Of a DNA stretch of 64,000 bases, positions 52,166-54,755 are shown piece by piece (the stretch's first letter is position 1; the number at the start of each line of letters is the position of its first letter). The notes beneath the pieces were generated by a model that saw only the letters and a program-made list of their open reading frames with translations, did not search any database and was not told where the DNA came from. Origin of the DNA: Celeribacter litoreus. GTDB lineage: Bacteria > Pseudomonadota > Alphaproteobacteria > Rhodobacterales > Rhodobacteraceae. The DNA lies in the NCBI RefSeq assembly GCF_020165855.1, contig NZ_JAIUFY010000005.1, positions 62,001 to 126,000 of the forward strand, written 5' to 3'. The position numbers and the translations under genes are program-made.

Positions 52166-52340
52166 ATGACATCCTTTCATACTTGCCCGCAGTTAACCGT
52201 TCAAAAGCCACAAGTTAAAGGGCGATTCCCGCGCAGCGGGGCTTGCATCTCGTCTCAGCGGCTAGAGAACGCCCTTTTGCGCTCCATTCCGCCCCTTGCG
52301 CCCCATTGCGTCGTGACCCGCCATCGCCTAAATGCAAGGC

Positions 52341-52862
52341 ATGACCTTGAAACCGATCCTCATCCACCCCGACCCGCGCCTTAAAAAGGTGTGCGACCCT
52401 GTGACCGAATTCGACTCGGATTTGGCGCGGCTCGCTGATGACATGCTTGAAACCATGTATGATGCGCCGGGGATCGGTCTTGCGGCCCCGCAGATTGGCC
52501 TTACGAAGCGGTTGCTGGTGATGGACTGCGCCAAAGAGGCGGATGGCACGCCGGAGCCGATGGTGCTCGTGAACCCTGCGGTGACGTGGGAGAGCGAAGA
52601 CAAGAACGTCTACGAAGAGGGCTGTCTCTCCATCCCCGGCCAGTATGCCGAGGTGGAACGCCCGAAGATGGTGCGCGTCAGTTGGCTTGATGTTGAAGGC
52701 AAGAGCCACGAAGAAGAGTTCGACGAGCTCTGGGCGACCTGTGTCCAGCACGAGATCGACCACCTGAACGGCGTGCTCTTCATTGATTATCTCAAGCCGC
52801 TCAAGCGCCAGATGATCACCAAGAAGATGCAAAAGCTGAAACGCGAAAAGGCCCGTTCCTGA
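52341..52862 (+). CDS. def: Peptide deformylase (canonical copy)
   Basis: A 173-residue metalloenzyme removing formyl from nascent N termini. All three motifs are intact: GIGLAAPQ (44-51), EGCLS with metal ligand Cys95, and HEIDH with His137, Glu138 and His141. The ATG at 52341 starts the conserved TLKPILIHPDPRLKKV; another ATG three codons earlier is possible and neither has a clear ribosome site. It is first of four genes def-def2-def3-fmt coupled by 1-4 bp overlaps. Confidence 0.96.
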   Translation: MTLKPILIHPDPRLKKVCDPVTEFDSDLARLADDMLETMYDAPGIGLAAPQIGLTKRLLVMDCAKEADGTPEPMVLVNPAVTWESEDKNVYEEGCLSIPGQYAEVERPKMVRVSWLDVEGKSHEEEFDELWATCVQHEIDHLNGVLFIDYLKPLKRQMITKKMQKLKREKARS

Positions 52863-53353
52863 TGGCGCTGCGCGAAATCGTGCTTTGGCCCGATGCGCGT
52901 CTGAGCACAGTTTGCGCGCCCGTTTCCGAGATCACCGACGACATTCGTCACCTTGTCGTGGACATGTTCGAGACAATGTATGACGCACCGGGCCGTGGCC
53001 TCGCGGCGCCTCAGGTCGGAGAATTGATCCGTCTATTCGTTATGGATGCAACGTGGAAAGAAGGTGAGAAATCGCCGCTCGCAATGATCAATCCGGAAGT
53101 CGTGAGTGTTTCGGAGGAAGTTTGCGAGATCGAGGAGGCGTGCCTTTCCATTCCCGGTGTGTCCGCGCATGTGACCCGTCCGACGCGCATTGAAATGCGG
53201 TGGAAGGATCTCGATGGAGAGATCCAAACCCGCGCGTTCGAGGGCGTAGACGCCCGCATCATCCAGCACGAGTTCGACCATCTCGAAGGTCTCGTGCATT
53301 TCGACCGTCTTGATCCCAAATCCCGTTCTCTCCTCGAGGAGGCTTACCTATGA
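52862..53353 (+). CDS. Peptide deformylase paralogue 2 (motifs slightly altered)
   Basis: A 163-residue paralogue. Motif 1 is GRGLAAPQ (44-51; a charged Arg replaces the usual Ile or Val). Motif 2 is EACLS (Ala for Gly, metal ligand Cys94 kept). Motif 3 is intact HEFDH with His136, Glu137 and His140. All direct metal and catalytic residues remain, so activity is plausible with changed substrate fit. It starts in a TGATG overlap with the first copy and ends in an ATGA overlap with the third. Confidence 0.9.
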   Translation: MALREIVLWPDARLSTVCAPVSEITDDIRHLVVDMFETMYDAPGRGLAAPQVGELIRLFVMDATWKEGEKSPLAMINPEVVSVSEEVCEIEEACLSIPGVSAHVTRPTRIEMRWKDLDGEIQTRAFEGVDARIIQHEFDHLEGLVHFDRLDPKSRSLLEEAYL

Positions 53354-53853
53354 CCCAGCGCCCGTTTTTGCCCTATCCGGACAAGCGCTTGCGGACGGCT
53401 GTTCCGCCTGTCACGGAAATCACCGATGAAATCCGCGCGATCTGGAACGATATGGTCGAAACGATGGATGCGATGCCGGGCTATGGCCTCGCTGGTCCGC
53501 AGATCGGAGTGATGCAGCAGCTCGCCGTCGTGGATTGCTCGGAAGAGCGCGGGAAGGCGATCAAGCTGGCGAACCCAGAGATTCTCCATGCGTCCGCTCA
53601 ACCAAGGGAACACGAGGAGGCCTCCCCAAACCTGCCGGGAATGTCCGCCGTGATTTCCCGCCCTCGTGCTGTGACTGTCCGCTTTCTCAATGAGAGCGGC
53701 GAAATAGAAGAGCGCGACTTTGTGAACCTCTGGGCGACGTCCGTGCAGCATCAGATCGACCATCTCAACGGCCGGATGTATTTCGACAATCTGAAACCCG
53801 TGAAACGTCAGATGTTCCTGAAGAAGGCGAAGAAAACGGGAGCCATCAAATGA
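53350..53853 (+). CDS. Peptide deformylase-like paralogue 3, predicted inactive
   Basis: A 167-residue paralogue with the deformylase fold but broken active site. Motif 1 is GYGLAGPQ (Gly for Ala). At motif 2 the metal Cys aligns with Ser92 (EASPNLPG in place of EGCLSIPG). In motif 3 the catalytic Glu is Gln135 (HQIDH). His134 and His138 remain. The reading frame is intact, with normal length and coupling to fmt (ATGA), so it looks like a maintained pseudoenzyme, not decay. No function is assigned. Confidence 0.88.
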
Positions 53854-54755
53854 GAGTTGTGTTCATGGGCAGCCCGGAGTTCTCCGTTCCCGTGCTCGAC
53901 GCGCTTGTCGAGGCGGGGCATGAGATCGCCTGCGTTTACTGCCAGCCGCCGCGTCCGGCGGGTCGTGGCAAGAAAGACCGCCCGACGCCAGTTCAGGCGC
54001 GTGCCGAGGAACTTGATCTTCTTGTCCGTCACCCGATCAACTTCAAAGATCCCTCTGATGTGGAGGAGTTCGCCGCGCTCGACGCAGATGTTGCTGTCGT
54101 CGTGGCCTACGGCCTGATCCTGCCGCAAGCGCTGCTCGACGCGCCGAAACACGGGTGCCTGAATATCCACGCATCGCTCCTGCCGCGTTGGCGTGGCGCT
54201 GCCCCGATCCATCGCGCGATCCTCGAAGGCGATGAGAAAACGGGTGTCTGCATCATGCAGATGGAAGCAGGTCTGGACACTGGGCCTGTTTTGCTCTGTC
54301 AAGAAACGCAAATTACGGCAGAAGACACCACCGCCATCCTTCATGATCGCCTTTCGGAGATGGGGTCTGATGCGATTGTCGTCGCGCTTGATGCCTTGTC
54401 GCAACTTGTGCCTGAACCTCAGCCAGAGGCCGGCGTCACCTACGCGGCCAAAATCGATAAGGCCGAGGCCAAAATCGACTGGACCCGCCCGGCGACCGTA
54501 ATTGACCGCCAAATCCGTGGACTATCGCCATTCCCGGGCGCATGGGCCATGCTGAACGACGAGCGGATCAAGTTCCACATGTCGCGCGCGGTTTTGGGCA
54601 GCGGCCAACCGGGAGACGTGATCGGAGATTTCACCATCGCCTGCGGTGACGGCGCGGTTGAAATTTTGACGGCACAGCGCGAAGGTAAACGCGCGATGCC
54701 GGTCTCGGAAATCCTGAAAGGTCTCGAGCTCCCGATCGGCAGTCGTTTTGAGTGA
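53850..54755 (+). CDS. fmt: Methionyl-tRNA formyltransferase
   Basis: A 301-residue enzyme formylating initiator Met-tRNA with 10-formyl-THF. Motifs include [17 protein letters not shown] at the start, [44 protein letters not shown] at about 108-150 with the catalytic Asn-His region and Asp145, and a C-terminal oligonucleotide-binding domain ([14 protein letters not shown]). It forms an operon with the three deformylase genes upstream, so formylation and deformylation are co-expressed. Confidence 0.97.

Follow-up and report, generated by a model that had tools for sequence, protein, structure and literature searches.

Three peptide deformylase (PDF) genes lie in tandem immediately upstream of fmt in the window, by which we mean the whole 64,000-nucleotide stretch of Celeribacter litoreus DNA analyzed here, and the locus raises the question of why a bacterium would keep a third deformylase gene whose product looks disabled. 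Rhodobacterales account for 104 of the 145 species reported by Lamberioux et al. (2025) to harbor clustered PDFs; such clusters occur in 98.1% of Rhodobacterales reference species, 62.5% of these having three genes, and their rationale was called elusive (PMC12690207). The cluster in the window is the Rhodobacterales cluster of that paper, the available passages of which neither describe a uniform pseudoenzyme next to fmt nor separate the three genes into orthologous clades. A search of open-licence papers, including a gene-duplication paper (PMC3024229), returned no description of a dead copy beside fmt, and a whole-word search of the main text of a Rhodobacter sphaeroides Tn-seq paper (PMC5513736) found none of the terms def, fmt, and formyl.

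Organization of the deformylase–fmt locus

The four genes of the locus are as follows.

52332..52862, + strand: copy 1 (c1), 176 aa; canonical type-1B-like PDF with all catalytic motifs and a basic C-terminal helix
52862..53353, + strand: copy 2 (c2), 163 aa; intact ligands, Arg in the S1' position of motif I, no basic C-terminal helix
53350..53853, + strand: copy 3 (c3), 167 aa; conserved pseudo-deformylase, last PDF before fmt
53850..54755, + strand: fmt, methionyl-tRNA formyltransferase, directly downstream of copy 3 (TIGR00460, 269 bits versus a cut-off of 201.5)

All three PDFs pass the Pfam PF01327 cut-off, with E values of 9.4e-56 (copy 1), 2.8e-50 (copy 2), and 2.6e-37 (copy 3, at 128.3 bits versus a curated cut-off of 22.8), and they are the only matches to this family in the whole genome. 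The first-pass annotation described three intact frames chained to fmt by overlaps of 1 to 4 bp, and the ORF coordinates bear this out: copies 1 and 2 overlap by 1 bp (TGATGG), and the copy 2/copy 3 and copy 3/fmt junctions each overlap by 4 bp (ATGA). Copy 1 has a second in-frame ATG at 52341, which is the start used in that annotation. Its reading of the motifs is likewise confirmed: copy 1 has all PDF motifs (GIGLAAPQ, EEGCLS, and QHEIDH), copy 2 retains the Cys, the Glu, and both His with altered neighbors in the motifs (GRGLAAPQ, EEACLS, and QHEFDH), and copy 3 (GYGLAGPQ, EEASPN, and QHQIDH) carries Ser92 in place of the Cys and Gln135 in place of the Glu.

Distribution, gene order, and selection

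To place copy 3 among its relatives, we used a sample of 61 Rhodobacteraceae genomes, one per genus, of which 59 with a PDF match were examined; G008 and G019 gave no PDF match at E 1e-10 and were left out. Copy 3 is present in 49 of the 59 genomes. The gene orders are copies 1, 2, and 3 followed by fmt (23 genomes), copies 1 and 3 followed by fmt (23), and copies 1, 2, and 3 with no fmt match on the fetched piece (three); the genomes lacking copy 3 have copy 1 followed by fmt (eight), copy 1 followed by two fmt matches (one), or copy 1 alone (one). Synteny with fmt, a check proposed in the first-pass annotation, holds throughout, with copy 3 the last PDF in 49 of 49 genomes and upstream of fmt in all 46 where fmt was seen. 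The gap between the two has a median of 3 nt and exceeds 50 nt in 14 genomes. With start codons chosen by script (L034 was given a non-start codon), overlaps are found at 18 of 23 copy 1/copy 3, 21 of 26 copy 2/copy 3, and 20 of 46 copy 3/fmt junctions. Apparent internal TGA codons in G009, G011, and G058 proved to be natural stops at the end of the alignment, the corresponding ORFs (L028, L049, and L052) being full length.

A second sample, an order-level draw from the same family that shares six genomes with the first, gave a match at the level of copy 3 (≥249 bits) in 61 of 61 genomes, the next matches scoring ≤192. Within the genus sample, an intact copy 3 is found in 20 of 20 genomes and copy 2 in 13 of 20. 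A profile search of 385 alphaproteobacterial genomes at E 1e-55 recovered copy 3 in all five members of the family and in none of the 380 genomes outside it. This search replaced a DNA pattern for QHQxDH, which matched 102 of the 385 genomes, with no PDF in any of the 30 loci inspected. Among named genomes, at least 587 relatives were found, and most of the 80 retained carry the name of Rhodobacteraceae or one of its genera in their titles, alongside a few metagenome-assembled genomes with vague titles. One contig titled Nocardioides marinus DP1N28-1 (L188) carries a Rhodobacteraceae-type copy 3 with 73% identity to that of the window and is probably a mislabelled or mixed assembly. Phage records matching copy 3 number 149, all below 60% identity (best 40.2%; eight rows inspected), and a distant dead PDF may exist among them; a match in an Acinetobacter phage record lay beside host-like genes and was dropped.

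Copy 2 is present in 26 of the 59 family genomes and is thus missing far more often than copy 3. All 26 also have copy 3, and copy 2 occurs in none of the 10 genomes lacking it (Fisher p 0.0016, with kinship ignored). This co-occurrence, together with the constant gene order and the frequent overlaps (18/23, 21/26, and 20/46), could mean that copy 3 acts mainly through contact with copy 1, copy 2, or Fmt as a partner, chaperone, or titrating subunit, its cleft serving as the interface. We regard this as unlikely: copy 2 is absent from 23 of the 49 genomes with copy 3, which rules it out as the main partner, PDFs generally occur as monomers, and the strongest constraint on copy 3 falls on its cleft (see below), a putative interface at most.

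We then asked where the accessory copies come from, using a tree of 90 alphaproteobacterial PDFs. Its rows were drawn at random after six loci per group had been kept deliberately, and they comprise 18 of the 49 copy-1 sequences found alongside copy 3, every one of the 10 found without it, 18 of 26 copy-2 rows, 24 of 49 copy-3 rows, and 20 of 29 outgroup rows. With a bootstrap that had not fully settled (0.980), the 24 copy-3 rows form one clade (100/100) on a stem of 1.1 changes per column, and the 18 copy-2 rows form another (100/99). Both clades are placed among the Rhodobacteraceae PDFs, apart from the 20 alphaproteobacterial outgroup rows. Resolving the cluster into these two clades and copy 1 sharpens the question left open in the published survey (PMC12690207).

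A second tree, of copy 1 and Fmt, has 68 rows: 14 from the outgroup and 54 from the 59 family genomes, with eight of the 10 genomes without copy 3 among them. Three rows (L057, L061, and L053) stand out by odd composition or long branches. The eight genomes lacking copy 3 are scattered inside copy-3 lineages, and the starred branches force at least four label changes; copy 3 therefore probably dates from early in the family, with most members keeping it and some dropping it. This pattern suggests several losses within the family. No second PDF was found at E 1e-10 in the 10 family genomes lacking copy 3, and with 10 of 59 genomes doing without it and several losses on the tree, copy 3 is evidently not needed everywhere. 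Frequent loss, which the first-pass annotation took as an argument against retention for a function, is thus seen in part: 10 of 59 genomes lack the gene, and 49 of 59 keep it.

The genomes with copy 1 only are L053 to L062. In the copy 1 and Fmt tree, L057 and L061 have long branches and L053, L057, L058, and L061 an odd amino acid makeup, and loss of copies 2 and 3 may be linked to fast-evolving genomes. Separately, in L056, a genome lacking copy 3, fmt appears to be split into two adjacent frames (about 814–1708, − strand), possibly by a frameshift or an assembly error.

Selection was estimated in the genus sample as NG86 dN/dS over pairs with 0.05 < dS < 1.5 and at least 140 codons. The median dN/dS is 0.082 for copy 1 (113 pairs), 0.140 for copy 2 (58 pairs), 0.079 for copy 3 (109 pairs), and 0.116 for fmt (81 pairs). 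When the same pairs are compared, the dN ratio of copy 3 to copy 1 is 0.91 (190 pairs, interquartile range 0.77–1.08), copy 3 evolves at 0.65 times the rate of fmt, and copy 2 evolves at 2.11 times the rate of copy 1 (78 pairs). In the 49 family genomes, the median pairwise identity of copy 3 (0.67) is close to that of copy 1 (0.68). The disabled copy 3 is therefore guarded as well as the canonical copy 1 and better than copy 2, which has intact catalytic residues. Neither relaxed selection nor frameshifts, either of which the first-pass annotation would have counted against a function, were seen: purifying selection on copy 3 equals that on copy 1, and all 49 family and 20 genus copy-3 genes are full-length open frames. 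On these grounds, it is hardly credible that copy 3 persists as a neutral relic serving only to space def from fmt within the operon. It does sit inside a tight operon, and its loss could disturb coupling to fmt, but the dN/dS equal to that of copy 1 already contradicts this explanation, as do the invariant cleft described below and the existence of arrangements that dispense with copy 3, nine family genomes having a direct junction from copy 1 to fmt. The most widely kept accessory member of the cluster thus looks like a disabled protein rather than a spare enzyme, conserved as tightly as the canonical copy.

The altered active site of copy 3

The substitutions that define the copy-3 site are listed below with their counts among the 49 family sequences and, where two counts are given, among 165 distinct copy-3 sequences.

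53623..53625, + strand: Ser92 for the metal-ligand Cys (E. coli Cys90); 49/49 and 165/165
53626..53628, + strand: Pro93 for Leu91 (E. coli); 49/49 and 165/165
53629..53631, + strand: Asn94 for Ser92 (E. coli numbering); 46/49 and 162/165
53740..53742, + strand: Ser131 for the second pocket Cys (E. coli 129); 49/49 and 165/165
53749..53763, + strand: HQxxH (His134-Gln135-...-His138) for HExxH; Gln135, His134, and His138 each 165/165

Pro93, Asn94, and Ser131 are absent from the first-pass annotation. The Ala-to-Gly change in motif I of the copy 3 of the window falls outside this signature, the residue being Ala in 47 of 49 family sequences. Invariant in all 49 are Ser92, Pro93, Ser131, Gln135, Trp32, Ala41, Met42, Ser64, and Ala74, and the residues found in all 165 distinct sequences are Ser92, Pro93, Ser131, Gln135, Trp32, His134, His138, Gln51, Glu90, and Asp137 (Met42 in 163). 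Copy 3 thus has Ser where a competent PDF has the motif II Cys ligand (EGCxS) and Gln where it has the motif III general base (HExxH), in every sequence of both sets; the canonical Cys (Cys90), Leu, Ser, second Cys, Glu (Glu133), and both His are found in 173 of 173 distinct copy-1 sequences.

The two sets carry different weight. The distinct-sequence sets (165 copy 3, 173 copy 1, and 85 copy 2) were obtained by dropping identical sequences and those shorter than 140 aa, and since part of the 165 was found through the copy-3 motifs, the 49-sequence count is given separately. Those 49 sequences were recruited by whole-protein score and can be used to count motif loss (alignment A2 omits two of them, L021 and L034); the 80 named loci and the genus loci, found through the motifs, and the 28 order-level loci read, which are the best-scoring 28 of 61, are unsuitable for this purpose. 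Chance does not account for Ser92, Pro93, and Gln135, which every one of the 49 family sequences carries. The underlying codons vary, with all six Ser codons in use at position 92 and likewise at 131 and either CAG or CAA at Gln135. Glu is one base away in 165 of 165 sequences, and Cys in 130 of 165 at position 92 and 98 of 165 at position 131, and no reversion to Glu or Cys at these sites is found among the 165 distinct sequences. With its catalytic residues gone and purifying selection acting on the gene, copy 3 is well supported as a conserved pseudo-deformylase.

In PDFs, the Glu of motif III is the general base, and the backbone NH of Leu91 faces the formyl group and holds the formyl oxygen. 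Having lost the Cys ligand, the general-base Glu, and this backbone NH, copy 3 should not deformylate. The metal of PDFs is bound by the Cys of motif II together with both His of motif III (PMC5591237). The Salmonella enzyme is stated to need Cys90 for activity; its C90S variant failed to restore growth of a zinc-sensitive mutant, and C130S retained about half of the activity (PMC7683392); it is from the C90S mutant that the predicted loss of activity in copy 3 follows by analogy. A docking study describes one compound that contacts the Leu91 backbone and Gln50 (PMC4964514); Gln50 has its equivalent in all 165 distinct copy-3 sequences. A further change affects the S1' pocket (Tyr to His88 in 159 of 165), and fMet-like ligands may therefore not fit.

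Activity can be read from motifs only imperfectly, and altered motifs are not in themselves proof of inactivity; among reference genomes, 24.5% lack any PDF that matches the classical motifs exactly (PMC12690207), a figure that might be taken to favor copy 3 as a still working deformylase. We consider this very improbable, given that the metal ligand and the general base are themselves replaced in 165 of 165 sequences, that the neighboring copy 1 is canonical in 173 of 173, and that the corresponding Cys is the one required in Salmonella (PMC7683392).

The pattern of conservation points to a cleft that was remodeled. Over a set of 22 cleft positions, composed of residues named in the available passages of two papers (PMC12690207 and PMC4964514) and others from general knowledge of PDFs, mean entropy versus that elsewhere is 0.32 versus 1.05 bits in copy 3, 0.25 versus 1.12 in copy 1, and 0.85 versus 1.58 in copy 2; among 10,000 random sets, none was as low for copies 1 and 3 and 11 were for copy 2. 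Seven of the 10 positions fixed differently in copies 1 and 3 (≥90% in copy 3, ≥85% in copy 1) fall in this set (Fisher p 3.5e-5), as do five of eight when positions 92 and 135 are removed (p 9e-4) and four of seven when 93 is removed as well (p 0.0045), these p values being indicative because the cleft positions were chosen with the conservation table already seen. This concentration of differently fixed residues in the cleft argues that copy 3 was retooled rather than eroded, and the cleft looks to have been rebuilt and then frozen. The first-pass annotation had called for dN/dS and residue conservation to be computed for copy 3, which shows purifying selection and an invariant altered site.

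An invariant, retooled cleft could also signify a different reaction. In this reading, which strikes us as quite unlikely, Ser92, His134, His138, and their neighbors would bind another metal or none and copy 3 would attack a different N-terminal group, or be active under stress alone, as has been proposed for type 3 PDFs (PMC12690207). Both His ligands, Gln51, and Glu90 are kept in 165 of 165 sequences, and activity of variant PDFs under oxidative stress has been discussed with an active type 3 PDF of Trypanosoma brucei cited (PMC12690207). However, the general-base Glu is Gln and the Leu91 position is Pro in 165 of 165, Cys90 is required in Salmonella PDF (PMC7683392), and T. brucei offers a weak precedent, with a value of 8 in the final column of an activity table versus 72 to 245,000 among the other rows listed (PMC5591237).

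Copy 3 shares with type 3 PDFs, which are found in archaea and trypanosomatid mitochondria and as the inactive accessory PDFs discussed for Staphylococcus aureus and Streptococcus pneumoniae (PMC12690207), motif substitutions that are expected to lower or abolish activity (PMC5591237, PMC12690207). Unlike them, it retains a conserved, type-1-like basic tail, has its changes in motifs II and III, is kept adjoining fmt across most of a family, and, among the alphaproteobacterial PDFs that make up the tree, falls inside those of Rhodobacteraceae. With type 1B PDFs (E. coli Def, PF01327), it shares the predicted fold, the basic C-terminal helix, motif I, both His, and the fmt neighborhood; the differences fixed in copy 3 are Cys to Ser, Glu to Gln, Leu91 to Pro, and pocket Cys to Ser. 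Inhibitors of the actinonin type chelate the PDF metal, and a role for copy 3 as a drug sponge was set aside, as its Cys ligand is gone.

Proposed ribosome docking and the likely role of copy 3

The AlphaFold2 model of copy 3 (mean pLDDT 95.9) predicts a PDF fold that ends in the C-terminal α-helix of type 1B enzymes.

53797..53835, + strand: basic C-terminal helix of copy 3, residues 150–162 (AlphaFold2 model); the ribosome-docking element in E. coli PDF

Foldseek matched the model to E. coli PDF bound to actinonin (1lru; TM 0.89, rmsd 1.6, 37% identity), the best E value being that of a Ni-form PDF (1icj). E. coli PDF docks on L22 by its C-terminal helix at a site that overlaps that of methionine aminopeptidase (PMC8712518), with L149, K150, R153, K157, K160, and R163 making contacts (PMC12690207). 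Lys or Arg occupies the equivalents of positions 150, 157, and 160 in 165 of 165 distinct copy-3 sequences. The equivalent of Arg153 is Met in 150 of 165 copy-3 and 139 of 173 copy-1 sequences, and position 163 is Arg or Lys in 63 of 165 copy-3 versus 172 of 173 copy-1 sequences. The median net charge of the tail is +8 in copy 1, +7 in copy 3 (based on 172 of 173 and 161 of 165 sequences, respectively), and −1 in copy 2. Judged from these residues, copy 3 appears to keep most docking features and to have lost the residues of the chemistry, and copy 2 appears to be the reverse. The first-pass annotation proposed that copy 3 is retained for a noncatalytic role such as binding formyl-Met peptides, regulating copies 1 and 2, or docking on the ribosome; retention with a disabled site is strongly supported, and, of these candidate roles, docking has partial support at the level of sequence.

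Taken together, these findings lead us to favor, by a modest measure of confidence, an ancient, family-wide pseudo-deformylase of Rhodobacteraceae that would dock on the ribosome in a noncatalytic role. The PDF fold and the docking helix are predicted to be kept in copy 3, as is much of the peptide-binding cleft; the protein would share the site of copy 1 near the exit of the ribosomal tunnel and engage nascent N-termini, or the docking site itself, without cutting. We speculate that it might thereby tune the timing of copy 1 or of methionine aminopeptidase.

More tentatively, and as a possibility we consider doubtful at present, copy 3 could represent a new kind of translation factor, a ribosome-docked, deformylase-derived reader of nascent N-termini that does not cut them. 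Such a protein, with much of its cleft kept and no metal ligand, general base, or NH facing the formyl group, would be suited to holding N-termini that are already deformylated or otherwise uncuttable, and it might pace copy 1 and methionine aminopeptidase or mark some nascent chains for another fate. A pseudo-deformylase on the ribosome could reveal a nonenzymatic step in the N-terminal processing of nascent proteins, and the question can now be tested in tractable relatives, namely, Rhodobacter sphaeroides, Phaeobacter inhibens, and Ruegeria pomeroyi.

Copy 2 is distinguished by a residue in motif I.

52994..52996, + strand: Arg45 of copy 2 (E. coli Ile44 position, S1' pocket); Arg in 85/85 distinct copy-2 sequences

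Since copy 2 was partly recognized by its GRG motif, the count of 85 of 85 is not independent. The Cys ligand is kept in 84 of the 85, and copy 2 is perhaps a ribosome-free deformylase with another substrate.

Finally, the residue of copy 1 equivalent to E. coli position 97 is Tyr or Phe in 173 of 173 distinct sequences. An Arg97Tyr change confers tolerance to actinonin (PMC12690207). Tyr or Phe at this position is common, being found also in 23 of 29 alphaproteobacterial outgroup PDFs.
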